Positions 1 to 16,529 of a stretch of DNA of 16,639 nt are shown here, piece after piece. Both the position numbers and the translations under genes were made by a program. Origin of the DNA: an uncultured Clostridia bacterium (GTDB lineage: Bacteria > Bacillota_A > Clostridia > Christensenellales > Aristaeellaceae); contig CAMJTZ010000027.1 in the NCBI GenBank assembly GCA_946408865.1, positions 1-16,639 of the forward strand, read 5' to 3'. Position 1 is the first letter of the stretch; the number at the start of each line of letters is the position of its first letter. The notes beneath the pieces are model-generated. The model ran no database searches. It was not told the DNA's origin and saw nothing but the letters and a program-made list of their open reading frames with translations.

Positions 1-2
1 CG

Positions 3-146
3 GCGGAGGAACCGGACACGGAAGCGCCGGAAACCCCGGCGGAGGAACCGGCCGCGGAAGCGCCGGAAACCCCGGCGGAGGAACCGGACATGGAAGCGCC
101 GGAAACCCCGGCGGAGGAACCGGATGCGGAAACGCCGCAGATCCCG
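3..146 (+). repeat. 36-bp in-frame tandem repeat, four copies, continuing off the left edge
   Basis: Copies start at 3, 39, 75 and 111. The first three differ at only a few bases and the fourth is more diverged. Each encodes a 12-residue unit of the type AEEPDTEAPETP. Because 36 is a multiple of three, gain or loss of a copy changes protein length without shifting the frame. The array continues leftwards out of the window, so total copy number is unknown. Confidence 0.92.
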
Positions 147-3100: not shown

Positions 3101-6100
3101 CGGCGTTCCGGCGGGCTATCCGGATACTTTCACAACTGTGAATGCCTGGGGCGGAGAGAACGGCTCCGGCATTGGCGAGGGCAACGCGCATAACGGCGGA
3201 GGCGTAACCATTACCGGCGGAACCGTCAATGCCTGGGGCGGAGAGGACGGTGCCGGTATCGGCGCGGGCCAGGATAACGATCTGTTCAGGCCGATTGTGA
3301 TTTCCGGCGGTAACATCCATGCCTACGGCGGAAAGAACGCTGCCGGAATCGGACTGGGGCCCCGGTATGCCGATCATGGCGGAAACATGCGGAACACCAT
3401 TGAGATCAGCGGAAAGAACACCTATGTGTATGCGGAAGGCGGATCGGAAGACGGTGCCGGCATCGGTACCGGTGAAAGAGGTGACATGGAGGGTACCATC
3501 ACGATCCGGGAAGCGACGGTGGAGGCAATTGCCCATGAGGGTGCAGCCGGAATCGGCGGCGGTTACAAAGGCAGCACTGAAAAAGGGACCATTACCATTG
3601 AAAGCGGAAACATCACCGTCCGGGTGACGGATGGAAACGGTGCGGGTATCGGCAGCGGTGAAAAGGACGACTGCGGAACCATCAACATTCAGGGCGGAGT
3701 TATTCAGATCTATACCAACGGAAAAGGCGGCAGTCTTGGCGGATCCAAGGGAGAAGGCAACGGCACCCTGACTCTGAATCCCCATACGCTGGTATCTGCC
3801 GGATCCGACGGAAACTATGTACCTGCAGGGGACCGGACAGGAACCTGCTGGAGCGGGGATGTCAATTACCTGAAAATTGAACCCTGCACGCACCCGGGCG
3901 GAACGATCGCTCCGGTAGATCATGTCAATCATGTTGTTACCTGCCAGTGGTGCGGGTTTAACAATGAGCCGGAAGAGCATTCCTACGGGACCGACCGGAG
4001 CCAGGAAAGCTTTTATCGGTGCGCCTGCGGATACAGCCGCAAACGGCTGGTGACGGGAACGGCGGACCGGGAAGGTTTCGGCAGCGTTACGATGGGTCTT
4101 TCCCCCGACAGCATGAAGGAAGAAAAACTGGAAACCATTCCCGGAGAAACGGTATATGTCCATCTGGAACCTTCTGCGGGGGTCCGGATTGCCGGGTTCA
4201 GCGGAAGCTACTTTGCAGAAGGGGATACGGAACCCCGGGCTTTCGGTGAATTCTCGGCATTTCCGGCGGACACCGGGAAAAACTATCAGTTTGCGATGCC
4301 GGATCCGGATGACGACAGACCGGAACTGACGCTGACGATGGAAACCCAGGGCGGTGAAAGCGCCCCGATTCCGGATCTGGATGAATACGGGGTTACCTAT
4401 CTGTCGGTAAAAACCACCGCGGGAGAGGAATACCTGATTGCACAGACGGAAGAGGAAGCGGCACAAAAAGAAAAAGAACCCGGCAACTGGGTTTCTGCCG
4501 ATGAAAAAGTTCTCGACTTTGAAGGCCTTGAACCTGGGAAGACCTATTTGATTTACGGCCGGAACAAAGCTGTCGGGGAGGTTACCGCAGGACCGAAATC
4601 CAAGCCTCTCCGGGCTGCAACCGATCAGGAACTGGACAGCCTGCAGCTGTTCCGGAGGGACGATCTGCGCGTCGGAGAAGTGATTACAGCTCTTCCGATT
4701 CCATTCCCGGCCGGAAAGCTGACCTTCCAGTGGTACCGGGATGACGAGGCGATCAGCAAATACACGAGCGCGTCCTATGTGCTGACAAATGCGGATATCA
4801 ATCATACTCTGAAGATTCAGGTGACACAGATCATCGACAAAAAAGGAAACGTGAAAACCGCGGAGCAGACCGTGAAGTTCAGCCCGTCCGGTTCCGTCTG
4901 GCTGGTGTACCAGAGGGCAGACGGCAGCTGGGAAAAAGCGGATACGATTCCGGCGGATCAGAAGGCGGAAGGCAAATACACCCTTGACGAAGCAGGGCTG
5001 AAGAATCATGTGCCGGAAGGAACCACAGGAGAAGGGTTCCGGCCGGTGGCCTACAGTTTCGGATACCAGGAAAAGGAAAGCCAGAGAACCGCCATTCCGC
5101 AAAACAAGGAAATCCTGATCCCCGAAAGCAACGCACAGCTGTATGTATACTTTGAACGGAAAGTGTACGCACTGAACTTTTACAGCAGCATGGAGGGGAA
5201 GGGAATACCGGAAACCTTCAGCGTCCGGTATGGAGCTCCGCTGAATGAATTCAGCGGGAAAGCGGTTCTGCAATTCGGCAGCAGCTTTGCAGGGTGGAGC
5301 CAGAGCCCCAAACCGAAAGACACGGAATACGGCTACGTGACAGTTTCTTCGGGCGACGGGGGAAAACCGAATTTTGTGCTGTTTGATCTGAACAGTGCCA
5401 CCATGCCTGCCGCCGGAATGAATCTGTATCCCGTACTGATCAAACCCCGGGTGGAGGTGCGGCTGGATCCCGGCGCTGTGGATGCCAACGGAACCCGGCA
5501 GAACATGAACGGGTGGCAGAATCCGGTCGTTTATACGGATCAGACGACGAAAGCCTATCTGGACGGCGGTCAGTATCGCTGCTTCACCATCGTCAGCGGG
5601 GATTCCCTGCCGGCGGATACAATGAAACGGATGGCTGAAGTGACGCGGGACGGTTATGAACCGGATGGATGGTATTCCGCCGGCGGCATCCGGTGGAATG
5701 AAGATCTGCACGCGCTTCCGGTATTCTGTGATACAACGGTGCCGGAAAAGAGGGAAGGAACTTCCAGTCTTTATTTTACGCTGACGCTGAAGGCGCGCTG
5801 GAAACTCCGGAATGCAACACTGCATTACGATGTGCAGGGACAGAGCTGGGACGGAGAAGACCGGAAAGACATTCAGCCCGGCACAGCGGTGGAAATTTCC
5901 GCTGAAACGGTAACGCCTCCGGAAGGGAAAGTTTTCCTTGGATGGAAGGATCAGAAAGGGAATTTCCATCCGGCCGGTTCCACCATCCTCTATGAGGATC
6001 TGGAACTGGTCAGCACCATCGGTGACGGAGAGAATCCCAACGTCATTACCCTGGAGGCTGTGTTCTTTGAACATCAGCATATGGTTGCTTTTGACAGCCG

Positions 6101-8948
6101 GGGAGGCAGCTTTACCGAGCCCGTTCTCCTGAGCGAGGAGGATTATGAGGCCGGGAAGAGAACCGTCAGCCTGGAAGGAAAGACCTCAGAACGAAAAGGC
6201 GGAATCTTCAGGGGCTGGGCGCTGTCCCCCGATGCGGATGAAACGGAAACCGTCACGGAGGTTTCCTTCGCAGACGGATCCGCCGTAATATGGGTTTATG
6301 CTCTTTGGGAGAACAGAAACTATTCCGTCTACTTCAGCGGAAACGGCGGAACCGTGGACGGAAAGGCCATTCTCCGGCGGCAGTATACCTACGGTGAACA
6401 GATCAAAAAAGACGAAACGCCGGTTCCGGTCCGCAAGCACTACACGTTTGCCGGCTGGCAGCCTGAACTTCCGGTCGTCATGCAGGCAAGGACGCTTTTC
6501 GTCAGTGCGGCCTGGGAACCTGCGAATCATACCTGGACCTTTGATCCGGCAGACGGATCGGCCGTTCAATCCATTACCGCCCGCTATGGGGAACCGGTAC
6601 AGCATCCTGCGGATCCGGTTCGGGAAGGCTATGTGTTTATCGGCTGGAAGAGTGAAGGAAAATATGCAGCGGTACCGGACTACATGGATGAGGACCGGAG
6701 CTGGACGGCCGGGTGGAATGCGCTGCGCTCCGCACCGGAAGCGCCGGAGATTGTTTATGTGACGGCGACGACCGTGGAGGTGCAGGCCCGCCCCGGCGAA
6801 GAATATGCCCTGGTTTACGCAGAGGATGATGCCCTGCCGGAGGAGAAAGACTGGAGATTGCCGGCAGCGGACGGAACCATGGTTTTCTATCCCTGCAAAC
6901 CTGCCACATCGTATCTCGTTTACGCCCGGTATTCGCAGACGGAAGGCTTCGAGGCTTCCGGTCCCTCCGAAGCGGTGCAGACAACAACAAAGAGGCTTTT
7001 TCCGATGCCTCCTCTGGTTATCGCGGGATTCCACACCATCTGGATTGTTCCGTTCGAGGAAGCATATGAACAGATTGTTGAATACAGCATCGACAAAGGA
7101 GAAACCTGGTGGAGCGGGCAGGTGATAGCGAACCTGCAGGCGTATACCGTTTACCGGCTGACGGCCCGGTGGAAAGAACTCCCGGACCAGAAGCAATATC
7201 CGGAATCTGCGGAAACAGAGGTTGTAATGGACACGGCTGTAACCGCAACAAACATCACCGGCATACTCCGGATCGGGGAAACCCTGAGGGCTTCCGTCGT
7301 ACCGATGGTCGCTGAAAGGGTAACCTGGCAATGGTACAGGGAGGGGGATACCCCGGGAGAGAAGATTCCCATTGAAAATGCCACCGAATCCTCCTATACC
7401 ATTACGGAAGAGGATGCGGGAAAGAGGCTGTGGGTTGTGGCTGTCCAGCAGTCCCGGCTTCCGGAACTGGAAGAACCTGTTGAGGTGAGTGCCGGAACAG
7501 AGCCGGTTCCCGGACCGGGAACGGTAAGCTTCCGGATCAGCAGCCCCGGCGGAGAGTCGGTACCCGGTATCCAGCTGACCGGGATCACGGAAGAAATGAT
7601 TCTGACGGCAGCGGGCGAAGAGGCGAAAACCAGACGGATGAAGGGGGAGGATCTTCTCCTGACCGTTACGGTGAACGATCTCAGCGGCAGGATCTCTGCC
7701 GAAGAGAAGAATCAGATGATCCGGGCACTGAAAAAAGAGGCCTCGGATGCAGCGGTTCTGCAGTACTTTGAACTGTCTGCCGAGCTGAAGATCGGGGAAG
7801 ATGATCCGATCCCGTTGACGAATCTGCCCGCAAACCGGATTCAGGTGACGCTGGCGGTACCCCGGAAGCATTACGCTTCAGGGAATACCAGCAGAACCTT
7901 CTTCATCGCCGGGCTGCGCAGCGGCACAGCAGAGATCCTGGCAAAGGGAAAGTACGTGGTGCAGCGGTTTACGACGGATGCTCTGCTTTCCCGTTATGCG
8001 CTGGGATACCATGATGCTGCTGAACCGCCGCAGAAGCCGGAAGGCGGCGGAAGCAGCTCCGGCGGAAGCAACCCCGCAGAAACAAAACCGGAAGAACTGT
8101 ATCGCTGGCAGGCGGACTTCCGCTTTGAGCTGTTCCCGGAAGCAGTTCCGGAAACGGAACGGGAACACGCGGCAGGATACAGGGATCTGATCAATGGTCT
8201 TGAACTGCAGGCGGACATCCTTTGGAACGATTCAAATAAAGGGCTGGATATTGCAGCGGCCCTCCTGCCGGCCGGCAAACCGGATGAGGCGGTTTCATTC
8301 CGGATTTTCGGAACCCCGGAGCGGCTTTTTATCGAAAGCCTTCTGCTGGGACCCCATCCTTACGCGCTGAGCAGCATGCAGGAGCTGTCCTCTCCGGAAA
8401 CGATGGAGAAAGGCCTTCCGTACTTCCTGTATGAAGGAAAGGACGGCGAGGGAAGAATCCTTGCCCGGTGGATCCGGGACAGCATAACGCTGCTGGATCT
8501 GGAACTGGAGATCAGCGGGATTCCTGCCCGGTTCCCGGGCAAAACCCAGATGGAAGCGGTTCTTCGCAGCGGCGGAGGAATTCTGCCCCGGACGGAAGGA
8601 TCGATCCGGCTGACAATGGATACCCAGGGAAAAACAGAGCTGATTGTTTCCGTACCGGATGAAGAAGGGAATCCGACGCCTTTGTTCCGGGCTTTCGGCA
8701 CTGTGACTGCCATCCGGGCGGACGGGGAGCCGGACGGTGTTCCGGATTTCAGCGGCCTGGAAAAGCAAAAAGTCCCCGCTCTGCTGAACACAGAAGGTCA
8801 GACGCTCCGCGAGGTGCTGGGTTTTATGACCCCGGAGGTGACCGAAGGTGTGAGAAGCCTGCTGGAGGCCGTGTCTGAACCGGGAACAATGATTCTGGCG
8901 GAGGATCTGGATAAGCTTGGCATTGCCATCCTGCCGGAAACACACTGA
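3..8948 (+). CDS. Giant modular extracellular/surface protein, 5'-partial
   Basis: The frame is open to the left edge; the first in-frame ATG, at 90, lies inside a tandem repeat and is not the real start, so the N terminus and any signal peptide are missing. Counting from that Met: acidic Pro/Glu repeats 1-150; beta-sandwich-like region about 155-310 ending FSTFVL; beta-helix modules about 368-600 and 911-1230 with AGIGG repeats every 29-30 residues, resembling carbohydrate-binding Cthe_2159-type proteins; divergent InlB-like domain about 780-870; Cys/His cluster 1266-1313; Ig-like domains with QWYR around 1548 and 2415; InlB-like repeats 1692-2210; fibronectin-like region 2214-2302; ZU5-like region 2482-2640; Gly/Ser linker about 2648-2670; unrecognised C-terminal domain 2671-2952. 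It ends with tandem TGA TGA. I see no SLH domain, choline-binding repeat or complete LPXTG signal, so attachment to the cell is unexplained. The likely role is adhesion or polysaccharide binding at the cell surface, which is inference. No catalytic motif is visible. Confidence 0.93.
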   Translation, partial: AEEPDTEAPETPAEEPAAEAPETPAEEPDMEAPETPAEEPDAETPQIPAEEPAEAPGEEPEAPEPENAEEPAAAAPETPEEEPAETLQTPAEKPAETPGEEAETPEQENLEEERQTPAEEPTETPQDPAEESAEEPGEEPETTEPEKPEEPAAEEPETPAEEPAEESGNEPEEEMTEETASDEDQEPHIFETEVTGEDGQVYRITVKTGPCSGIPAKAVLSVRLIRKGSPEYEAILGKAGETLQDGQKMEELFAFDICLVDPGDPEKHYQPVDESAVSVSITVPDLKPAEQDSEMQVLHFTDNRPGEPEILHTESIQEGEEPQEFSFRTGSFSTFVLMKTTAAEGTITVACEGVSGDVECTLLTADMETIGTAGQETWFSFEDALSFSKRPEIQGTVNLVLRNGKTLTAPKGINLLDGSKLVIRQEQGKSGSALLNAVVTDTTVKDSAGIGGDGVHQKAGSLEIYGGTITAQGASFAAGIGGGNGGYSGAITIHGGTVNATGGHSAAGIGGGEAGSMSGTLTILGGTVNAAGGDYGAGIGGGQYFSDDVQCEKMVGGNGGNVVISGGNVTAKGGLGASGIGGGDAGSGGTLSINGAAVVAASCGNAEGDAAAGPEAIGRGDSTIRNSGSEISSGKIVFSGSTKVYTSCSADPEKDEPVAQEQRTEACRAREVKIVSSADAEEYNIIAQLIHSAAGTEEDEKISVFNDAGEAISAAAAGTVFTVQVTCRKQTPAISCQTAAVYTEKDREKNLTLSGPEETEKDEIRTLTYTGTMPEAELTISATLTRNQKSITIDSYDHTVGTVTVNPEKTAPGERPILTFAANEGYEEYWLKTLKVTGVSSQTVYAEIRETGMPENITNTDSDGHNWQFVMPDEDVILTGITFGRGTHYIDRSGVRTPRRQCFEVTGDMTEWNDSGAEDGWYVVRGEVTMNGTVHICREVNLVLCDGAKMIAPKGIVVDAGMGGALYLWAQEKGTGCLEATGDEKAAGIGATKKIESGPIRIFGGQISAWGQTDAAGIGGAYQSYVKGDGITIGVPAGYPDTFTTVNAWGGENGSGIGEGNAHNGGGVTITGGTVNAWGGEDGAGIGAGQDNDLFRPIVISGGNIHAYGGKNAAGIGLGPRYADHGGNMRNTIEISGKNTYVYAEGGSEDGAGIGTGERGDMEGTITIREATVEAIAHEGAAGIGGGYKGSTEKGTITIESGNITVRVTDGNGAGIGSGEKDDCGTINIQGGVIQIYTNGKGGSLGGSKGEGNGTLTLNPHTLVSAGSDGNYVPAGDRTGTCWSGDVNYLKIEPCTHPGGTIAPVDHVNHVVTCQWCGFNNEPEEHSYGTDRSQESFYRCACGYSRKRLVTGTADREGFGSVTMGLSPDSMKEEKLETIPGETVYVHLEPSAGVRIAGFSGSYFAEGDTEPRAFGEFSAFPADTGKNYQFAMPDPDDDRPELTLTMETQGGESAPIPDLDEYGVTYLSVKTTAGEEYLIAQTEEEAAQKEKEPGNWVSADEKVLDFEGLEPGKTYLIYGRNKAVGEVTAGPKSKPLRAATDQELDSLQLFRRDDLRVGEVITALPIPFPAGKLTFQWYRDDEAISKYTSASYVLTNADINHTLKIQVTQIIDKKGNVKTAEQTVKFSPSGSVWLVYQRADGSWEKADTIPADQKAEGKYTLDEAGLKNHVPEGTTGEGFRPVAYSFGYQEKESQRTAIPQNKEILIPESNAQLYVYFERKVYALNFYSSMEGKGIPETFSVRYGAPLNEFSGKAVLQFGSSFAGWSQSPKPKDTEYGYVTVSSGDGGKPNFVLFDLNSATMPAAGMNLYPVLIKPRVEVRLDPGAVDANGTRQNMNGWQNPVVYTDQTTKAYLDGGQYRCFTIVSGDSLPADTMKRMAEVTRDGYEPDGWYSAGGIRWNEDLHALPVFCDTTVPEKREGTSSLYFTLTLKARWKLRNATLHYDVQGQSWDGEDRKDIQPGTAVEISAETVTPPEGKVFLGWKDQKGNFHPAGSTILYEDLELVSTIGDGENPNVITLEAVFFEHQHMVAFDSRGGSFTEPVLLSEEDYEAGKRTVSLEGKTSERKGGIFRGWALSPDADETETVTEVSFADGSAVIWVYALWENRNYSVYFSGNGGTVDGKAILRRQYTYGEQIKKDETPVPVRKHYTFAGWQPELPVVMQARTLFVSAAWEPANHTWTFDPADGSAVQSITARYGEPVQHPADPVREGYVFIGWKSEGKYAAVPDYMDEDRSWTAGWNALRSAPEAPEIVYVTATTVEVQARPGEEYALVYAEDDALPEEKDWRLPAADGTMVFYPCKPATSYLVYARYSQTEGFEASGPSEAVQTTTKRLFPMPPLVIAGFHTIWIVPFEEAYEQIVEYSIDKGETWWSGQVIANLQAYTVYRLTARWKELPDQKQYPESAETEVVMDTAVTATNITGILRIGETLRASVVPMVAERVTWQWYREGDTPGEKIPIENATESSYTITEEDAGKRLWVVAVQQSRLPELEEPVEVSAGTEPVPGPGTVSFRISSPGGESVPGIQLTGITEEMILTAAGEEAKTRRMKGEDLLLTVTVNDLSGRISAEEKNQMIRALKKEASDAAVLQYFELSAELKIGEDDPIPLTNLPANRIQVTLAVPRKHYASGNTSRTFFIAGLRSGTAEILAKGKYVVQRFTTDALLSRYALGYHDAAEPPQKPEGGGSSSGGSNPAETKPEELYRWQADFRFELFPEAVPETEREHAAGYRDLINGLELQADILWNDSNKGLDIAAALLPAGKPDEAVSFRIFGTPERLFIESLLLGPHPYALSSMQELSSPETMEKGLPYFLYEGKDGEGRILARWIRDSITLLDLELEISGIPARFPGKTQMEAVLRSGGGILPRTEGSIRLTMDTQGKTELIVSVPDEEGNPTPLFRAFGTVTAIRADGEPDGVPDFSGLEKQKVPALLNTEGQTLREVLGFMTPEVTEGVRSLLEAVSEPGTMILAEDLDKLGIAILPETH
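147..539 (+). repeat. Degenerate Pro/Glu-rich low-complexity region
   Basis: This continues the 12-residue array in degraded form. Variants such as PAEEPAE, PETPEEEPAET and PGEEPE recur, almost entirely Ala, Glu, Pro and Thr. The segment is strongly acidic and probably disordered, acting as a stalk or spacer. The GGA/GAA/CCG codon pattern also leaves a spurious Arg-rich frame open at 124-528 in frame +1. Confidence 0.8.
1191..1850 (+). repeat. Beta-helix module 1 of the giant protein (AGIGG repeats)
   Basis: The module opens with a VNLVL...APKGI segment at residue 368 (numbering from the Met codon at 90). AGIGG-type motifs follow at about residues 418, 448, 477, 507 and 548. Between them lie G-x-I/L-T-I-x-GGTVNA-x-GG strands, giving a period of 29-30 residues, with one longer interval carrying a Cys-containing loop (YFSDDVQCEK). 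Such Gly-rich periodic repeats are typical of right-handed parallel beta-helices, including Cthe_2159-like carbohydrate-binding proteins. The family assignment is by resemblance only. Confidence 0.75.
2820..3740 (+). repeat. Beta-helix module 2 of the giant protein, paralogous to module 1
   Basis: This module repeats the layout of module 1. VNLVL...APKGI starts at residue 911. GIG motifs follow at about 957, 986, 1025, 1054, 1084, 1122, 1152 and 1184. Most intervals are 29-32 residues and two are 38-39. Two rungs are still close at DNA level: the stretches from 3141 and 3228 share nearly the same 'aatgcctggggcggagag' sequence 87 bp apart, which suggests recent rung duplication. Confidence 0.75.
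3885..4028 (+). other. Cys/His cluster, possible metal-binding finger in the giant protein
   Basis: Residues 1266-1313 (numbering from the Met codon at 90) carry C-T-H, then CQWC at 1285-1288, EEH at 1297 and C-A-C-G at 1311-1314. Paired His...CxxC...His...CxCG arrangements recur in clostridial surface proteins and look like a small zinc ribbon. The last pair is CxC rather than CxxC. Metal binding is inference; a disulfide-bonded knuckle is the alternative for an exported protein. Confidence 0.5.
5163..6720 (+). repeat. Run of InlB B-repeat-like (Flg_new) modules
   Basis: About six units begin near residues 1692, 1788, 1908, 1997, 2077 and 2147 (numbering from the Met codon at 90). Several have the hallmark of this family: a hydrophobic strand followed by a Gly-rich turn (for example VYFSGNGGTVDG), then a GY/HY-x-F-x-GW motif (FAGWSQ, FLGWKD, FRGWAL, FAGWQP, FIGWKS). 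These beta-grasp-like repeats occur in Listeria internalin B and in many Bacillota surface proteins, where they act as stalks or bind glycans and proteins. The units at 1788 and 1908 are the most divergent. Confidence 0.7.
8100..8945 (+). other. C-terminal domain of the giant protein, not recognised
   Basis: About 280 residues follow the Gly/Ser linker. The segment starts YRWQADFRFEL and alternates amphipathic strands (LELQADILWN, SFRIFGTPERLFIESLLLG, LLDLELEISG, SIRLTMDTQG, TELIVSV) with a few helices. This could be a lipoprotein-carrier-like beta fold, but I cannot assign a family. It is not a wall-sorting signal: there is no hydrophobic membrane segment and no basic tail. The last residues are ILPETH followed by tandem stops. 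A role in surface retention or in binding a partner is possible, but nothing in the sequence shows it. Confidence 0.5.
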
Positions 8949-8970
8949 TGACCGGTCCGCGAAGAACCAT

Positions 8971-8999
8971 TTTACATTATTCATATTATATACTAATAT
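8971..8999 (+). promoter_or_regulatory. Predicted promoter of the TPR gene
   Basis: A -35 box TTTACA at 8971-8976 and a -10 box TAATAT at 8994-8999 are separated by 17 bp, in an AT-rich patch that stands out from its surroundings. Transcription would start near 9006, leaving a leader of about 75 nt. It lies 22 bp after the stop of the giant gene, so the TPR gene need not depend on read-through. Confidence 0.65.
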
Positions 9000-9006
9000 A
9001 AGTCTG

Positions 9007-9039
9007 TGGCTTTACAGCATGGTTTCGCAGAAAAAGCCA
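9007..9039 (+). promoter_or_regulatory. Stem-loop in the 5' leader of the TPR gene
   Basis: TGGCTTT at 9007-9013 is complementary to AAAGCCA at 9033-9039, with a 19-nt loop. It would sit at the very 5' end of the predicted transcript, where such stems often stabilise mRNA. No run of T follows, so it is not a terminator. Its function is unknown. Confidence 0.35.
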
Positions 9040-9081
9040 TCTGCTTTCCAAAGAATTCAATAAATAACGGAGGAAAAGGAA

Positions 9082-10254
9082 ATGAAGAAGCAAATGAAAA
9101 GAAGACTCCTGGCGTTGACTCTGGCAGCCGGTATGCTGCTGGCCGCGGCTCCGGTGACGGCGGAAGAGACGGCAGCTCCCGCAATTGCGGATGCCCAGAC
9201 GCTGGACAGCAGCTATACGCTGGCACTGGCTGCCATCAACAGCGAAGATTACGAAACCGCGAAGGAGTATCTGGATATTTGCTTTGTATACTGCAGCCCC
9301 CAGAACAATCCCCAGCTGTACGCCGATCTGCTGCTCAAGCGGGCGTGCATCAACGTGATTGAGGAAAAGAACACCATGGCGCTGCTGAATCTGGAAGCCG
9401 CATTGCGGCTGCAGCCGGAACTGGCGGAAGCTTTCCTGGTACGCACCCAGATTTACACAGCTTCCGGGGAGTTTGACAAAGCTGTTACGGACCTGGAAAA
9501 GTATATTGAACTGACCAGGAACGAAACCATGTATGAAACCGTTGCCCAGTTGTATGAGGCGGCAGGAAACCTGCCTGCCGCACAGGAAGCTTACGACAAG
9601 TACGCCACCGGGGCCGGAAAGGAAAATCCTGAAGCGGGCTTCCAGGCGGGGCTGTACCGGATGGACAGCGGCAAGTGGGAAGAAGCCGTGGAAGCTTTCC
9701 AGGCATATAAGGATGACGAAACCTACGGCGCCGGCGCCCAGTACAACATCGGCGTGAGCAAAATGAATCTGCAGGATCTGGCAGGAGCCATTGAAGCTTT
9801 CAATGCCTGCGAGGAAAAGGGCGGCACCTTCAGCGGCCTGTCCCTGAACCGCGGCATCTGCTATCTGCTTTCCTCCGACTGGGAGAAAGCCGCAGAAGAC
9901 TTTAACCGTTCCATTGAACTGGAACAGTTCAAGGAGGATGCCTGGTACGACCTGGGAATCTGCTACCTGCAGATGGAAAAGTACGCGGAATCCGTTGCCG
10001 CCTTTGATGCGCTGATCAAAGCAGTGGAAGGCAAGGAAGACATAACATTGAACGACGGAGTGTATTATTACCGTGCGATGAGCAACGCGGCACTGGGCAA
10101 CCTGGAAGAAGCGGTCAAGGACCTGACCACGTGCATTGATCACGGTTATGAGCTGGCTCAGACCTATTATCAGCGCGCCAAGGTATACGCAGCCATGGGC
10201 GACGCAGAGAAACAGAAAAGCGATCTGGAGAACTCCCTGAAGAATACCAAGTAA
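9082..10254 (+). CDS. Secreted tetratricopeptide-repeat (TPR) protein
   Basis: The 390-residue product has a typical Sec signal peptide: MKKQMKRR, a hydrophobic core LLALTLAAGMLLAAA and a PVTA cleavage site, giving a mature start near residue 28. There is no lipobox Cys, so it should be released or held by other contacts. The rest is nearly all TPR units of about 34 residues, beginning near 44, 82, 114, 151, 184, 218, 252, 286, 326 and 359. They show the usual pattern, for example AWYDLGICYLQMEKYAESVAAFDALIK. TPR solenoids bind proteins; the partner is unknown. The start at 9082 is chosen because GGAGG at 9069-9073 lies 8 nt upstream and the signal peptide begins there. It has its own promoter and terminator, so co-function with the giant surface protein upstream is only a guess from adjacency and shared export. 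Confidence 0.93.
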   Translation: MKKQMKRRLLALTLAAGMLLAAAPVTAEETAAPAIADAQTLDSSYTLALAAINSEDYETAKEYLDICFVYCSPQNNPQLYADLLLKRACINVIEEKNTMALLNLEAALRLQPELAEAFLVRTQIYTASGEFDKAVTDLEKYIELTRNETMYETVAQLYEAAGNLPAAQEAYDKYATGAGKENPEAGFQAGLYRMDSGKWEEAVEAFQAYKDDETYGAGAQYNIGVSKMNLQDLAGAIEAFNACEEKGGTFSGLSLNRGICYLLSSDWEKAAEDFNRSIELEQFKEDAWYDLGICYLQMEKYAESVAAFDALIKAVEGKEDITLNDGVYYYRAMSNAALGNLEEAVKDLTTCIDHGYELAQTYYQRAKVYAAMGDAEKQKSDLENSLKNTK

Positions 10255-10383
10255 GCATCCGGAAGACGGACGCAAACTGACCGGCTGTCCGGGATTACAG
10301 GCACTTTCTGAAGAAGGAAGATGCTTTCAGGCAGACGGCATCAGTGAATGCAGGAACTCTCCGGAGAAATGCAGGAAAAGAAG

Positions 10384-10409
10384 ATGCAGCCTGAAAGGGC
10401 TGCATTTTT
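10384..10409 (+). terminator. Rho-independent terminator after the TPR gene
   Basis: ATGCAGCC at 10384-10391 pairs perfectly with GGCTGCAT at 10398-10405 around a 6-nt loop, followed by TTTTT ending at 10409. It lies 130 bp after the TPR stop and between two convergent genes. On the other strand the stem is followed only by a weak pyrimidine run, so stopping sstT transcription as well is possible but less certain. Confidence 0.88.
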
Positions 10410-10480
10410 CGCAGGAATGGGGAATCATTCTTTTATGCCCGGTTTCCGTCTCACAGGACCCGGAAAGGCTTATGTGTTTT

Positions 10481-11761
10481 TCAGATGTCCACCTTTGTGT
10501 TTCCGCCCAGGAAGGTCGGCAGGCTTTTTCCCTTTTTCTTCCAGTCCCGATACTCCGCCGTGGCGGTAAAGATTACGTCCCCGGAGGAATTCAGAGCGGT
10601 TTCCATGGAGTCCTGGACCACACTGATGATGAATCCGACGGAGACCACCTGCATGGAGATTTCCAAAGGAATACCGAAGAGAGAGCAGGCCATCGGAATC
10701 ATGAGCAGGGAACCGCCTGCCACCCCGGAAGCGCCGCAGGCAGCAAAGGTGCTGAGCAGGGACAGAAGAATCGCGGACGGGATATCAACTGCGATGCCAA
10801 GGGTTCTCGCAGCAGTCAGCGTCATGATTGTGATCACCACTGCTGCGCCGTCCATGTTGATGGTGGAACCCAGGGGAATGGAAATGGAATACACGTCTTT
10901 TTCCAGACCCAGCCGTTCACAAAGCCGCATATTGACCGGAATGTTCGCTGCGGAGGAACGTGTGAAGAATGCGGTAAGTCCGCTTTCCCGGATGCACCGG
11001 AAAACCAGCGGATACGGATTTCTGCGCAGAATCAGAAAAACAATCAGCGGATTTATCACCAGCGCAACCGTTGCCATGGTTCCAACCAGCAAAAGGACCA
11101 GTTTCCCGTAATCCGCATAGGCAGACAAACCACCTGTGGTAATACTGTTGTACACCAGTCCCAGAATGCCGAACGGCGCCAGGTTGATGATCCCGCTGAT
11201 GATCCTGGACAGAATCCCGGAAAAATCCGTGAACAGCTGTTTTGTTCCGTCGGAAGCCATCCGGTTCATCAGAATGCCGATCACGACCGCCCAGAACAGG
11301 ATTGAAACATAATTGCCAACGGAAAGCGCTGATACCGGATTGGTAAAAACCGTCAGAAGCAGCGTTTCCAGAACTTCGCCGAGGCCGGAGGGGGGCGTTA
11401 CTGTTTCCCCGGCCGCCTTCGGCAGCTGCATCGTTATCGGGAAAAGATAGCAGAAAAGAACGGCCACGGCAGCGGCAATGAATGTGGATACCAGGTATTC
11501 CACGATAACAAAACCAAATCGCCTGTCAAAACCTTTGTTTCCGTTGGCCAGGGATGAAATGACCAGTACAAAAACAAGCAACGGCGCAATCGCCTTCAGG
11601 GCGCTGACAAACAGTGCCCCGGGAATATTCAGCCATTCTGCTCCGGGAAAAAGAAAACCAAGACCCGCGCCAATGACGATGGCAATGACAATCCGCAGGA
11701 CCAGATTTGTTTTTGAATAACCCCGAACGACCTTCAACAAAATACCGGTGACCGATTTCAT
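10481..11761 (-). CDS. sstT: Serine/threonine:sodium symporter SstT (DAACS family)
   Basis: The 426-residue integral membrane protein, close to the 414 of E. coli SstT, imports L-serine and L-threonine with sodium. Family signatures, numbered from Met at 11761, are TRSSAANIPVN at 267-277 (serine-rich re-entrant loop), NMDGAAV at 302-308, CGASGVAGGS at 342-351 and QDSMETALNSS at 383-393. Hydrophobic helices fill the rest. An ATG at 11812 would add 17 residues, but it lies inside the predicted -10 box and has no ribosome binding site. The ATG at 11761 has a GGCGGG sequence 6 nt upstream and gives the usual N terminus, so I place the start there. The gene appears monocistronic, with its own promoter, and converges on the TPR gene. 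In a fermenting gut bacterium it would supply amino acids for biosynthesis or fermentation. Confidence 0.93.
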   Translation of the reverse strand: MKSVTGILLKVVRGYSKTNLVLRIVIAIVIGAGLGFLFPGAEWLNIPGALFVSALKAIAPLLVFVLVISSLANGNKGFDRRFGFVIVEYLVSTFIAAAVAVLFCYLFPITMQLPKAAGETVTPPSGLGEVLETLLLTVFTNPVSALSVGNYVSILFWAVVIGILMNRMASDGTKQLFTDFSGILSRIISGIINLAPFGILGLVYNSITTGGLSAYADYGKLVLLLVGTMATVALVINPLIVFLILRRNPYPLVFRCIRESGLTAFFTRSSAANIPVNMRLCERLGLEKDVYSISIPLGSTINMDGAAVVITIMTLTAARTLGIAVDIPSAILLSLLSTFAACGASGVAGGSLLMIPMACSLFGIPLEISMQVVSVGFIISVVQDSMETALNSSGDVIFTATAEYRDWKKKGKSLPTFLGGNTKVDI

Positions 11762-11807
11762 GCAGATCCCGCCTTTGTTTTCTGATTCGCTGACTCCCAG
11801 TATGGTA

Positions 11808-11836
11808 ATCATAACATGAATTTAACACACTGGCAA
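11808..11836 (-). promoter_or_regulatory. Predicted promoter of sstT
   Basis: On the minus strand, -35 TTGCCA (11836-11831) and -10 TATGAT (11813-11808) are separated by exactly 17 bp. The start point would be near 11801, about 40 nt before the sstT ATG at 11761. The -10 box contains the upstream ATG at 11812, so that ATG would not be transcribed from this promoter. This supports the shorter sstT reading. Confidence 0.7.
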
Positions 11837-11885
11837 ATACTGGAATGCTAAAGTTCTGCGGCGGGGGCGGATGAATAAAACCGGG

Positions 11886-12398
11886 TTAATGCCCTGAATC
11901 TGACGCCTTAAGCAAATTCTTGTTTTCGTACATCATCCGGTCTGCCCGTTCAAACACCGGAGCAACGGAGTCATCGTCAGCGAAGCGGGACATGCCGCAG
12001 GCGACCACCACGCCGCCGCTGCGGAGTGCTTCTTTGTTATGGTCTGCGATCAGGGCGGTCAGTTCCCCGATGCGTGCGTAATCCTCTCCCTGTGAGATCA
12101 CCACAAACTCATCTCCGCCGACGCGGAAGACAGGACTGTGTTTAAAGGTATTGCAGATGAGTCTGCTGGCCTGCCGCAGGTAGTCGTCACCGGCCTGGTG
12201 TCCGGCAGTATCGTTTACCTTCTTCAGGTCGTTTACATCCAGGATTGAAACGGCGAAAGGCGGCTGGCGCTTTCCCGCGATCAGGCGGTTTATCTTTTCC
12301 TCCGCCTCCAGGTAGGAATGCTTGTTTCTGACTCCGGTGAGCGCGTCCACCGCCGCACGGGCCTGAGCCTGTGAGAGACGTTTCCGGTATTCCGCTTC
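11886..12398 (-). pseudogene. GGDEF catalytic part of the diguanylate cyclase, downstream of an in-frame TAG
   Basis: This stretch continues the frame of the 12399-13892 gene immediately after its TAG: EAEYRKRLSQAQARAA, then VDALTGVRNK and a full GGDEF domain of about 155 residues. Diguanylate cyclases make cyclic di-GMP from two GTP. Key elements are intact: DALTGVRNKHS, metal-binding DVNDLKKVN, HQAGDDYL and active-site RVGGDEF. The RxxD inhibitory site five residues before GGDEF is absent (FKHS instead), so product feedback at that site is unlikely. There is no ATG. The only early start-like codon is GTG at 12350, inside the DALTG motif and without a ribosome binding site, so independent translation is doubtful. 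The stretch may be a dead remnant, a read-through product, or the result of a sequencing error. It ends with TAA at 11886. Confidence 0.8.
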
Positions 12399-12401
12399 CT
12401 A
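12399..12401 (-). other. In-frame amber codon between sensor and GGDEF parts
   Basis: The minus strand reads CAG GTG CGC TAG GAA GCG GAA, giving TQVR-stop-EAE, at the joint between the second PAS region and the GGDEF linker. Frame, domain order and linker style are otherwise continuous. One base change from CAG, AAG or GAG would create this TAG. The other terminal stops visible in the window are TGA (three) and TAA (three); none is TAG. Confidence 0.95.
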
Positions 12402-13892
12402 GCGCACCTGGGTATCGATATCGCTGATACCGGCGATCAGGCGGCGTCCCTCTTTTTCCTCTACCACGGCTGCCCGGAACTGGACATAACGGGGCTGCCC
12501 GTCGGCGGAAACGCGGTGCGTCAGGGAAAAGACGCCCCTCTCGCGGATTCCGTTCAGGATGTTTTCCTCGGTAACTGCGTGCAGATAGTGGTCCAGATCA
12601 TCCGGACAGACAAGCTCTGAGGCCAGATCCCGGAGATCACTGAAGAAATCCGCGCCTTCCCGCATTGGCACGCTGCGTTCATTCCGCAGGGAAGCACTGT
12701 ATTCCCGGTACCGTCTGCTTTCAGGATCCACAATAAAGATGGCAATAAAATTGCCGGCCAGGGCGCTGATCCGGGTATAGGCGGTGCGTTCCTCCTGTAT
12801 CCGTTCCTCCGCCCGGCGGATTTTCTCCTTGTCTGTAACATCCTGGCTCATTCCCAGCAGACACACCCGTCCGGAAGGATCAACGAACTTGAGCTTTGTG
12901 GTCTGGAACTGCCGGGGGATCCCGGCAGCATCCGGCACATCCTCGAAGAAAACATACGGCCGGTTCATGGACAACGCTCTTTTATCGTCCTCCATAAAGT
13001 GAAGCGCAGTCGCCTCATCAAAGATATCCGCATCGGTCAGTCCGATTACATTCTGCGGGCTTTCTTTATGGGCATACTCCGCGAAGGCCTGGTTGCAGGC
13101 AATATAGGCGCCGGTTTCCGCGTCTTTGTAAAAGCTCAGCGCAGGCATGTTGTCCAGAAGCGTGGAAACGGACTCCTGCAGCTGGCGGACCTTTTCCGCT
13201 TCTGCCAGCCGGCTGCGGGTGTCGTTTTCCTCGTCGCTGATGACGAAGGCATAGAGCAGGCTGATACCCAGCATATACGCGATTGTATAGAGCGGCAGAA
13301 GAGGATACCAGAGCTGGATAATCAGAAAAATACTTTTGATCAGCCCGAAAAGCCCCAATGTCCGGTGCCGGTTTCTTTTTTTCATCGCGCCGCGCTGCCG
13401 GAAGATCACTGTGAACGCATATGCCGATACCAGCAGGAGCAGGAGGATCTGGGTAATCAGGACCACATACCGGAGGTTCAGCGCGCTGTAAACGCCTGAC
13501 TGATCCACGGTGAACAGAAGCGGCGTGAAGCAGTTGGCGACAGAGATGACCGTCACCGCTACGGCGAAGATCCGTCCGGCATACAGAACGAAACGGCTGA
13601 AGCGGCCCCTCTCCCCGAGATAAATGACGGCGGAATGCGTCCAGCACAGCACGCCGGCCGCCATTGCGATAAAGTATATCGTTGTATCCGCAAAGAGCAG
13701 GGACACCCATTTTTCCGACTCGAACCAGCCCCACATAATATCCGTAAGGTAATAGACGAGAACGGCGAACAAAAACTTCCTGTACGCCTTACCGGCAGGG
13801 GTCCGGCTGATCCGGTTCCGTTTCAGAAGAAAATCCTTGTGCTCAATCAGCAGAATGAGGGCGGCAAGGATTCCGATCGCAGAATAATACAT
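12399..13892 (-). CDS. Membrane sensor part (7TM-PAS-PAS) of an amber-interrupted diguanylate cyclase
   Basis: The 497 residues begin at an ATG with GGAGGAG 7 nt upstream (13906-13900). About seven hydrophobic helices lie near residues 3-17, 40-57, 64-84, 101-122, 141-164, 179-200 and 202-219, resembling the 7TM sensor of bacterial kinases and cyclases. A short coiled coil at about 221-243 leads to a PAS domain, about 246-354, opening LDNMPALSFYKD and closing GMSQDVTD. A second PAS-like region follows at about 372-491, ending GISDID. Such proteins sense a signal at the membrane and pass it to a C-terminal GGDEF domain. Here that domain is encoded directly downstream in the same frame, after a single TAG. 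If the stop is real, the product is a sensor without output. If read through, it is a 668-residue cyclase. Ligand unknown. Confidence 0.85.
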   Translation of the reverse strand: MYYSAIGILAALILLIEHKDFLLKRNRISRTPAGKAYRKFLFAVLVYYLTDIMWGWFESEKWVSLLFADTTIYFIAMAAGVLCWTHSAVIYLGERGRFSRFVLYAGRIFAVAVTVISVANCFTPLLFTVDQSGVYSALNLRYVVLITQILLLLLVSAYAFTVIFRQRGAMKKRNRHRTLGLFGLIKSIFLIIQLWYPLLPLYTIAYMLGISLLYAFVISDEENDTRSRLAEAEKVRQLQESVSTLLDNMPALSFYKDAETGAYIACNQAFAEYAHKESPQNVIGLTDADIFDEATALHFMEDDKRALSMNRPYVFFEDVPDAAGIPRQFQTTKLKFVDPSGRVCLLGMSQDVTDKEKIRRAEERIQEERTAYTRISALAGNFIAIFIVDPESRRYREYSASLRNERSVPMREGADFFSDLRDLASELVCPDDLDHYLHAVTEENILNGIRERGVFSLTHRVSADGQPRYVQFRAAVVEEKEGRRLIAGISDIDTQVR

Positions 13893-13939
13893 TCGTATGG
13901 CTCCTCCGGGGTTGCGCTTTCATGCTTTTCGTATACGAT

Positions 13940-13962
13940 CCCGGACCTGTCCATGATCCGGG
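13940..13962 (-). promoter_or_regulatory. Stem-loop in the leader of the cyclase gene
   Basis: CCCGGA and TCCGGG at 13940-13945 and 13957-13962 form a 6-bp stem with an 11-nt loop. It lies about 50 nt before the cyclase ATG and 34 nt upstream of its ribosome binding site. It does not match a riboswitch I know. A structural role in the leader is possible. Confidence 0.3.
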
Positions 13963-14050
13963 GGAAATATTTCGCCTGAAAACGAAATGAACAGAAGGAT
14001 ACACCTTATGATCCGATCCCATTTTTCCACTTTTAAGGCAATAAATCAAC

Positions 14051-14075
14051 GGGGTTTTCCAGAATGTCAAACCCC
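14051..14075 (-). terminator. Possible second terminator or leader hairpin between guaA and the cyclase gene
   Basis: GGGGTTT at 14051-14057 pairs with AAACCCC at 14069-14075. On the minus strand the stem is followed by GTTGATTTATT, only moderately T-rich. A TTGACA overlaps the stem and loop, so it could instead belong to the cyclase promoter region. Confidence 0.35.
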
Positions 14076-14097
14076 GATATGAATAGTTTTTAAGATG

Positions 14098-14146
14098 AAA
14101 AACAGCCATTTTCCCACTTTTCCACCAAGGAAAGGAAAAAGGCTGT
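14098..14146 (-). terminator. Rho-independent terminator downstream of guaA
   Basis: ACAGCC (14102-14107) pairs with GGCTGT (14141-14146). Inside, TTTTCC/GGAAAA and TTTCC/GGAAA extend the stem to an ACCAA loop. Read on the minus strand the hairpin ends in GGCTGT followed by TTTTT, as expected for a terminator of guaA, whose stop is about 135 bp upstream. On the plus strand CATTTTT follows, so it could act both ways, though no plus-strand gene enters here. Confidence 0.72.
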
Positions 14147-14236
14147 CATTTTTCCGGAAAACCGGAATTTCGATCTGATTCTATATTTGTATGTTGTCGG
14201 GAAATAACAGGTAAAATTACAGGTTTTGTGTCCGCC

Positions 14237-14263
14237 ACAGGTCCGTCGCCTTGTCAGACCTGT
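14237..14263 (-). terminator. Inverted repeat just past the guaA stop
   Basis: ACAGGTC (14237-14243) and GACCTGT (14257-14263) form a perfect 7-bp stem with a 13-nt loop, 17 bp after the guaA stop. No T-run follows on either strand, so it is more likely a 3' mRNA-protecting stem than a terminator on its own. Confidence 0.3.
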
Positions 14264-14279
14264 TGCAGAGCTTTAGCGT

Positions 14280-15266
14280 TTATTCGAACTCGATCGTGGC
14301 GACAGGTTTTTCACTGACATCCCAGAGGACGCGGTTGACGCCGTCGACGGTGGAAATGATCCGGTCGCGGATCCGGCAGATTACGCTGAAGGGAATCTCC
14401 GGAACGGTGGCAGTGACGGCATCCACCGTGTTGACGGCGCGAATGATTACGGCCCAGCCCATGTAGCGGACACCTTTGCCGTCCACATACCGGATGCCGG
14501 TGGATTTGAAGTCCGGCACGACGCAGAAGTACTGCCACGGAACATCAGGCAGAGCGCCGATTTCCTCGCGGACGATGGCGTCCGCCTCACGGAGGGCTTC
14601 CAGCCGGTCGCGGGTGATGGCGCCGACGCAGCGGACGCCCAGGCCGGGGCCGGGGAAGGGCTGGCGGTAAACCATACCGTCCGGCAGGCCAAGGGCCTTG
14701 CCGACGACGCGTACTTCATCCTTATACAGCAGTCTGACGGGCTCGACGAGTTCGAACTGCAGATCGTCCGGCAGGCCGCCGACGTTGTGATGCGCCTTGA
14801 CGCCGACGCTCTCGGTAATATCGGGGTAAATGGTGCCCTGCGCCAGGAAGGCGATACCGTCCTGTTTGCGGGCTTCTTCTTCAAAAACACGGATGAACTC
14901 AGCGCCGATGATTTTGCGTTTCTGCTCCGGATCGCTGACGCCGGCCAGCTTGTCCAGGAAACGATCCACGGCATCCACATAAACCAGATTGGCTTTCATC
15001 TGGTTGCGGAAGACTTCGATCACCTGTTCCGGTTCGCCCTTGCGGAGCAGGCCGTGGTTCACATGCACCGCGACCAGCTGCTGCCCGATGGCTTTGATCA
15101 GCAGGGCGGCCACAACAGAACTGTCCACACCGCCGGAAAGGGCGAGAAGAACCTTTTTGTCTCCCACCTGTTCCCTGATGGCGGTAACCTGCTCGCTGAT
15201 GAATGCCTCAGCCAGTTCAGGGGTAGTAATCCGCTGCATGTTTTCCGGGCGCTTATTGTTATCCAT
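14280..15266 (-). CDS. guaA: GMP synthase, stand-alone ATP-pyrophosphatase (synthetase) subunit
   Basis: The 328-residue enzyme catalyses the last step of GMP synthesis: it adenylates XMP with ATP and then aminates it. The ATP-PPase P-loop SGGVDSS is at 44-50. GTIYPDI at 144-150, HHNVGGLPDDL at 159-169 and the lid-region motif PFPGPGLGVR at 203-212 are present, and the C-terminal dimerisation region ends KPVATIEFE. Fused bacterial GuaA is about 510-525 residues with an N-terminal glutamine amidotransferase. That half is absent here and is not encoded upstream, because the gene has its own promoter only about 50 nt before the start. The layout is like the split archaeal enzyme and, as I recall, some clostridial ones. 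Ammonia must come from a separately encoded amidotransferase or directly from the medium. The start is supported by GGAGG at 15278-15274, 7 nt before ATG. The stop is TAA. Confidence 0.95.
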   Translation of the reverse strand: MDNNKRPENMQRITTPELAEAFISEQVTAIREQVGDKKVLLALSGGVDSSVVAALLIKAIGQQLVAVHVNHGLLRKGEPEQVIEVFRNQMKANLVYVDAVDRFLDKLAGVSDPEQKRKIIGAEFIRVFEEEARKQDGIAFLAQGTIYPDITESVGVKAHHNVGGLPDDLQFELVEPVRLLYKDEVRVVGKALGLPDGMVYRQPFPGPGLGVRCVGAITRDRLEALREADAIVREEIGALPDVPWQYFCVVPDFKSTGIRYVDGKGVRYMGWAVIIRAVNTVDAVTATVPEIPFSVICRIRDRIISTVDGVNRVLWDVSEKPVATIEFE

Positions 15267-15316
15267 CTTTTTTCCTCCAATCCATCCTCACTCATACAAA
15301 ATGGGATTCACGACAA

Positions 15317-15345
15317 ATAATAGGAAAAGATCAGAAACATGTCAA
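15317..15345 (-). promoter_or_regulatory. Predicted promoter of guaA
   Basis: On the minus strand a consensus -35 TTGACA (15345-15340) and -10 TATTAT (15322-15317) are spaced by 17 bp. Transcription would start near 15310, leaving a leader of roughly 45 nt. That is too short for a purine riboswitch, and I see none. Confidence 0.8.
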
Positions 15346-15360
15346 TTGAAAAACATGACA
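15335..15360. repeat. Direct repeat overlapping the guaA -35 box, operator candidate
   Basis: AAACATGTCA at 15335-15344 and AAACATGACA at 15351-15360 match at 9 of 10 positions and are offset by 16 bp, about one and a half helical turns. The first copy covers the -35 box of guaA. This could be a binding site for a regulator of purine synthesis, but it does not match a site I can name. Confidence 0.35.
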
Positions 15361-15427
15361 GAATTATGAACGCTTTTTTTCGGAAGCTCTAATTTTATCC
15401 GGACCGGAAGCGGAAGAAGGAAAGAGA

Positions 15428-15456
15428 TTGACAGACAGCTGTCCGCCGCATAAAAT
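15428..15456 (+). promoter_or_regulatory. Predicted promoter of manA
   Basis: Consensus TTGACA at 15428-15433 and TAAAAT at 15451-15456 have a 17-bp spacer. The start point would be near 15463, with a leader of about 80 nt. The spacer begins with the perfect 10-bp palindrome GACAGCTGTC (15434-15443). This promoter and the guaA promoter point away from each other in the 276-bp intergenic region. Confidence 0.8.
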
Positions 15457-15473
15457 AGGTCACGAAAGTTAAC

Positions 15474-15497
15474 TGTAAGCTTAACAAAAGGCTTACA
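15474..15497 (+). promoter_or_regulatory. Inverted repeat in the manA leader
   Basis: TGTAAGC (15474-15480) and GCTTACA (15491-15497) are perfect inverted copies around a 10-nt A-rich loop, about 10 nt after the predicted transcription start. It could be an operator or a small mRNA stem. No T-run follows, so it is not a terminator. GTTAA/TTAAC half-sites also lie here (15468-15485). Confidence 0.4.
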
Positions 15498-15542
15498 AAA
15501 TCCCAAAACGGTTGTTATTTTGGAAAAGGCAGGGAGATTGCG

Positions 15543-16493
15543 ATGACAGATATGTATCCTTTGGTGATGAGTCCTTATTTCCGGTCCGGGGAGAGCACAC
15601 CCTGGGGCGGAACCGCACTGAAAGAGAAATACGGCAAGAATACGCCGGATGAAATTACCGGTGAAAGCCTGGAGATTTCCGTGCTTCCGGGCCATGAAAG
15701 CCGTGTGATGAACGGCGCATACAAAGGGGAAACGCTGCAGGAAGTCTTCACACTGCAGGGGGAGCAGCTGACGGGAAAGCAGGGAAAGGATTTTCCGCTG
15801 ATGCTCAAGCTGCTTGACGCGCGCAGGGACCTGTCCGTGCAGGTGCATCCGGATGACGCCTACGCACTGACGCATGAAGGAAAATTCGGAAAAAGCGAGG
15901 CGTGGTATATCCTGGACGCGGAGCCCGGCGCCAGGCTGGTATACGGCGTCGACGCAGAAGGCGAAAAACTGCGGGCGATTGTGGAAGCCGGCCGGCTGGA
16001 AGAGCATCTGCATTGGGTGGAAGCCCGTCCGGGCGATGTGTTTTACATTCCGAGCGGAACGGTTCACGCACTTGGCTCCGGGATTCAGTGTTATGAGATC
16101 CAGCAGTCCAGCGACGTGACCTACCGCTTCTGGGACTGGAACAGGACGGGGAAGGACGGAAAGCCGCGGGAGCTGCATCTCCGTAAAGCCCTGGATGTTT
16201 CGAGGACGGGAAGGCTGCCGGAGCAGCGTGCAGAGCAGGTGATCCGCGCGGAAGGAGGGAAGATGACGCTGCTGGTCAGCGATCCGCATTTCCGGCTGTA
16301 CGCGGCGGATCTGGACGGAACCTTTTCCCTGCCCGCAGGGGAGATGCTGTTTGTGACGCCGACGGCGGGTTGCACCCTGCAGTGGGAGGATAACGGTCTG
16401 GAACTCGCAGCGTGGCAGAGCGCGCTGATTCCGGCGTGCATGAGCGAAACAAAAATATCCGGCAGCGGCAGGGTACTGGTGTCCTGTGCCTGA
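15543..16493 (+). CDS. manA: Mannose-6-phosphate isomerase, class I
   Basis: The 316-residue cytoplasmic enzyme interconverts mannose 6-phosphate and fructose 6-phosphate. It links mannose use to glycolysis and supplies precursors for mannosylated polymers. The length matches the short Bacillus-type ManA (about 315 residues). Visible cupin metal ligands are Q100 and H102 in QVHPDD, E119 in KSEAWY and H175 in PSGTVHAL. YRFWDWNR follows at about 195-202, with the active-site Arg region. PWGG near the N terminus is also typical. The start at 15543 has AGGGAG 6 nt upstream; the next ATG at 15552 is too far from that site. The gene has its own promoter and a promoter lies directly after its stop, so it may be transcribed alone. 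No terminator is obvious after it. Confidence 0.95.
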   Translation: MTDMYPLVMSPYFRSGESTPWGGTALKEKYGKNTPDEITGESLEISVLPGHESRVMNGAYKGETLQEVFTLQGEQLTGKQGKDFPLMLKLLDARRDLSVQVHPDDAYALTHEGKFGKSEAWYILDAEPGARLVYGVDAEGEKLRAIVEAGRLEEHLHWVEARPGDVFYIPSGTVHALGSGIQCYEIQQSSDVTYRFWDWNRTGKDGKPRELHLRKALDVSRTGRLPEQRAEQVIRAEGGKMTLLVSDPHFRLYAADLDGTFSLPAGEMLFVTPTAGCTLQWEDNGLELAAWQSALIPACMSETKISGSGRVLVSCA

Positions 16494-16529
16494 CGGAAAA
16501 GTTGTTCGGAAAAAAACATACAAAAGGGA

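Follow-up and report, generated by a model that had tools for sequence, protein, structure and literature searches.

Does an in-frame amber codon in a bacterial sensor gene mark a broken gene, or a signal that the cell reads through? The question is raised by a minus-strand gene in a 16,639-nucleotide stretch of DNA from an uncultured Clostridia bacterium (herein the window). An earlier reading based on the letters alone (herein the sequence-only reading) described a diguanylate cyclase split by a single TAG, and offered a recent nonsense mutation, a sequencing or consensus error, a suppressor tRNA or programmed read-through as explanations. We used homologue searches, structure prediction and surveys of related genomes to choose between these.

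Architecture of the Interrupted Gene

The frame runs from an ATG at 13892 to a terminal TAA ending at 11886 and comprises 669 codons, of which codon 498 (12401-12399) is the internal TAG. The features of the gene are as follows, where P0002 is the top match in our protein search, an intact relative that represents 27 sequences.

13901..13907, minus strand: Shine-Dalgarno sequence (GGAGGAG) of the cyclase gene
12399..13892, minus strand: first reading frame, 497 residues up to the TAG, encoding a membrane sensor with two PAS-type domains
13188..13892, minus strand: seven hydrophobic helices, residues 1-235 (P0002 model and hydropathy)
12840..13139, minus strand: PAS domain 1, residues 252-351 (Pfam and model)
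12420..12749, minus strand: PAS-like domain 2, residues 382-491 (structure model only)
12354..12419, minus strand: helix joining PAS 2 to GGDEF, residues 492-513, containing the TAG (model, low confidence)
12399..12401, minus strand: in-frame TAG, codon 498; the DNA of the sheep-rumen relative G012 has a sense codon here, and the 12 closest proteins listed agree on a single residue
12348..12350, minus strand: GTG, codon 515, the sole in-frame ATG, GTG or TTG between the TAG and the DxLTG motif; weak Shine-Dalgarno sequence
11886..12398, minus strand: rest of the frame past the stop, a GGDEF domain with intact motifs, ending in TAA

Pfam identifies a PAS_4 domain in the part before the stop (E = 1.4e-13) and a GGDEF domain in the part after it (E = 2e-21); the second PAS domain is not called by Pfam and is seen in the structure model only. 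The cyclase motifs DALTG and GGDEF are intact in the window sequence when aligned to its homologues, and both the window frame and P0002 contain a GGDEF domain (PF00990) with the DxLTG and GG[DE]EF motifs that define a diguanylate cyclase. By domain and motif content the gene is thus a predicted diguanylate cyclase, and its intact product would be expected to synthesize c-di-GMP.

An AlphaFold2 model was made of P0002, which is 99% identical to the window protein (mean pLDDT 81.9; pTM 0.40, so that the placement of the domains is uncertain). In the model, seven long helices at the N-terminus precede two PAS-like domains (about residues 252-351 and 382-491), a helix spanning residues 492-513 that is of low confidence (block pLDDT 60 and 52) and the GGDEF domain. 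The seven corresponding N-terminal segments of the window protein are hydrophobic, with best 19-residue hydropathy means of 1.26-2.32. Frame reading, Pfam and the model agree with the sequence-only reading that sensor and GGDEF domain lie in one frame interrupted by this TAG only and, as modeled, the stop falls in the stretch linking PAS to GGDEF. Foldseek returns matches at the level of domains only: multi-PAS and GGDEF proteins, DosP among them, match with a whole-chain TM score below 0.2; for GGDEF domains, with 4urg as an example, the TM score is 0.76 on the target's length.

The downstream part had been described as lacking a usable start of its own, which proves nearly right. A GTG does exist at 12350, 48 bases past the TAG and abutting the DALTG motif; its Shine-Dalgarno score is -3.7 kcal/mol, compared with -9.5 kcal/mol for the gene's own ATG, and is at background level, 48% of the codon positions of the gene scoring equally well or better. 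As the GTG thus resembles an average internal codon, the GGDEF part could be translated on its own, but at a low level only. Within the window, Rfam at gathering thresholds gives no match and ARAGORN finds no tRNA.

Intact Relatives at the Stop Site

A DNA search found some match to the multidomain cyclase in 47 of 61 related genomes. Among the matches listed, full-length coverage is confined to G012, a sheep-rumen Clostridia metagenome-assembled genome whose orthologue (contig JAFXRG010000004.1) is 88% identical and forms a 668-residue open frame without an internal stop. Its codon at the TAG site is a sense codon that differs by one base; this is one close orthologue compared as DNA. When the DNA matches are read through stops, an internal TAG appears in none of those listed; nine contain a single TAA or TGA, and codon 498 is spanned by at least 11 that are free of stops.

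The protein search was limited to the 7,995 candidates with the most words in common and gave 1,211 matches, of which the best 120 were used. The 12 closest proteins listed (P0002-P0013; 74-99% identical) all cross the site and have the same single residue there. This residue is shared by 110 of the best 120 of the 1,211 matches, and the other 10 show three other states and no gaps. No product ending at the stop (∼497 residues) occurs among these 120, the shortest of which has 593 residues, although 497 residues lay within the length limits; clustering at 90% could hide truncated forms, also within the 27-member P0002 cluster. Since database proteins that span the site have a sense codon there by construction, more weight falls on the G012 DNA and on the lack of shorter products among the matches listed.

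The window gene has the same domains and motifs as these Clostridia membrane PAS-GGDEF cyclases (the G012 orthologue and P0002-P0013), and the length of its frame is close to that of 11 of the 12 proteins (666-669 residues; P0013 has 593). Its relatives run through the site, whereas the window copy stops between PAS 2 and GGDEF. An ordinary nonsense allele should have intact orthologues with a sense codon, and the homologue alignment proposed in the sequence-only reading yields just these, in the G012 DNA and in 12 of the 12 closest proteins listed. That reading had named sense codons in the orthologues and a TAG in this copy alone as the mark of an ordinary pseudogene; as far as examined, in G012 and the 12 proteins, this is the pattern observed.

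Decoding of TAG in Related Genomes

The sequence-only reading had noted that no other gene ending in the window uses TAG. The count itself holds (TGA three times and TAA three times among the other genes whose ends were read), but in relatives TAG is an ordinary stop: it ends 12 of 90 open reading frames of at least 200 residues in 32 loci, counted by greedy picking of frames and with one locus (L001) left out as it lies within another (L039). Release factor RF1 (TIGR00019) scores above the cut-off in six of eight relatives, including the nearest genome compared (G001); the two misses are G012 (63% complete) and G007 (85% complete). ARAGORN finds no CUA anticodon in stretches that together include every one of the 77 tRNA matches in G001 and G012 (50 distinct sequences; genomes 88% and 63% complete, and relatives of the window's genome rather than that genome itself). 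The TAG count and the search for a CUA tRNA, both suggested by the sequence-only reading and run here in relatives, thus show TAG in normal use and no such tRNA in G001 or G012. The 121 nucleotides around the stop fold no better than shuffled sequences (z = 0.48).

Age of the Stop

Before the stop, 8 of 497 residues differ between the window protein and P0002; after it, none of 170 does. This bears out the earlier claim that the GGDEF half is undamaged, with all catalytic motifs intact. We weighed this upstream surplus of differences as a possible signal and dropped it, as it is not significant (about 0.1 by hand). Relative to G012, dN/dS is 0.234 before the stop and 0.239 after it. From sequence comparison, this lack of decay past the stop leaves three options: a recent change, a consensus error, or continued use of the downstream part. 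Upstream of the stop, the window protein has two residues (281 and 429) that are shared by none of the 12 closest proteins listed. Residue 429 (12606-12608) is a cysteine in the window cyclase, compared with Trp, Tyr or His in these 12 proteins, and may mark either a second weakened position or one more error in the consensus.

A Recent Nonsense Substitution Is the Best Explanation

With a probability of roughly 0.9, the locus is a normal PAS-sensor diguanylate cyclase gene with one recent nonsense substitution, be it a true allele, a variant within the sampled population or an error of the consensus. For one stop codon that is absent from the closest known relatives, the likeliest origin is a recent mutation causing loss of function, or else an error in the sequence. 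If the TAG is real, ribosomes would halt at codon 498, the product of ordinary termination would be a membrane sensor that lacks the GGDEF output, and cyclase activity would then be lost or much reduced. Relatives carry several other GGDEF genes, so the loss of one may be tolerated.

Within this explanation, a consensus or assembly error only, with the gene intact in the living bacterium, is a tentative branch that takes a minor share. It fits a single substitution in an otherwise undamaged frame and the identity to intact P0002 of all 170 residues past the stop; nothing speaks directly against it, but a clean single substitution is equally expected of a real mutation. The unchanged downstream part would also fit continued use via low-level read-through or re-initiation. 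An allele that is tolerated or even advantageous by uncoupling sensor from enzyme, yielding the sensor alone plus a little free GGDEF domain or full-length protein by re-initiation or leaky read-through, is conceivable by analogy with published cases and we regard it as unlikely. Similarly improbable, in our estimate, is a locus that makes two separate proteins, the sensor up to the TAG and a soluble GGDEF protein re-initiated at the GTG at 12350, the latter an unregulated cyclase. The position of the GTG right before DxLTG would suit such a product, as would solved GGDEF-only structures (4urg), which align from residue 516 onward, and a study of degenerate cyclases in Shigella flexneri (PMC11327459) describes dgcE, dgcN and dgcQ as still raising c-di-GMP despite nonsense codons before the GGDEF domain. 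However, the Shine-Dalgarno sequence of this GTG is at background level, a fragment starting there would be without the helix that precedes the GGDEF domain, and the same study reports no raised c-di-GMP signal for dgcM and pdeR, which also have a nonsense codon before GGDEF. Moreover, no 154-residue product occurs among the best 120 of 235 matches to the downstream part, where clustering at 90% could hide one; the best of these 120 are a 156-residue protein from a 1,776-bp contig, which matches 91% of the query at 96% identity, and a 193-residue protein that matches 99% of it at 84% identity.

Readings in which the TAG is decoded as sense are much less probable still. Programmed read-through, giving both a sensor-only and a full-length product, would accord with a frame that is open and unchanged past the stop, and conserved in-frame stops under purifying selection have been reported in bacterial genes (PMC7918605). 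We nevertheless consider it very improbable: read-through of this kind would be expected to leave a stop conserved in orthologues and a stimulatory RNA structure, but the stop is missing from the G012 DNA and the 12 closest proteins listed, and the 121 nucleotides around it show no structure beyond chance. The scarcely credible reading is genome-wide recoding or suppression of TAG in the lineage. The absence of TAG from the other gene ends read in the window would agree with this, but recoding would call for RF1 to be missing or TAG to be unused as a terminator, whereas RF1 is above the cut-off in six of eight relatives, frames in relatives end with TAG and ARAGORN calls no CUA anticodon in the incomplete genomes G001 and G012. 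Of the four explanations offered by the sequence-only reading, the recent nonsense mutation and the sequence error therefore fit, and the suppressor tRNA and programmed read-through are unsupported: the stop is found in no examined relative, RF1 and termination at TAG look normal in relatives, the search of two genomes gave no CUA tRNA and there is no RNA structure signal.

Comparison with Published Cases

Like the window gene, Shigella flexneri dgcE, dgcM, dgcN and dgcQ are described as having a nonsense codon before an intact GGDEF domain and intact counterparts in relatives (PMC11327459). As described there, the Shigella genes have an ATG near the stop and their products were measured, whereas the window gene has a weak GTG only and is known from its sequence alone. 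Given the mixed outcomes reported for these genes, it would be premature to regard the window gene as wholly inactive; weak residual expression of the GGDEF domain, as in some of the Shigella genes, may occur here by analogy.

In-frame stops in prokaryotic genes were surveyed by Belinky et al. 2021 (PMC7918605), whose cases resemble the window gene in having a single in-frame stop, a conserved frame and no decay. The survey kept stops shared by at least two species, whereas the window stop is seen in one sequence.

The window gene is one more candidate cyclase cut just ahead of its GGDEF domain. Its importance is small, as relatives have many GGDEF genes and one broken copy is unremarkable. 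It does illustrate a caution, namely that a frame open past a stop is by itself no evidence of recoding: most likely, this is an ordinary nonsense allele or a sequence error in a normal cyclase gene, with no new decoding trick.

Genomic Neighborhood

The genes around the cyclase differ in their divergence from relatives. In G001, the gene for a giant protein (window 163-8962; 95% identical) lies ∼455 bases before the guaA region (window 14280-16501; 85%), without the intervening block at 8963-14279 that comprises a TPR gene, an SstT-type transporter gene and the cyclase gene, which indicates a gain or a loss. Relative to G001, dS is 0.09 for the giant gene, 0.39 for guaA and 0.68 for manA. The comparison with G012 gives a dS of 0.26-0.29 in the two parts of the cyclase and of 0.29 in the TPR gene, which lies ∼25 kb from the cyclase gene on the same G012 contig, against 0.75 in guaA and 1.06 in manA. 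This mosaic divergence around 9082-13892 suggests horizontal exchange, as judged from the sequence comparisons.

The GMP synthase frame at 14280-15266 encodes a 328-residue C-terminal part (ATP-pyrophosphatase plus dimerisation), with the glutaminase half not in the same frame. At the other end of the window, positions 1-8948 form a 2,981-residue frame, open at the window start, in which degenerate PAEEP-type repeats come first and repeated glycine-rich segments also occur.
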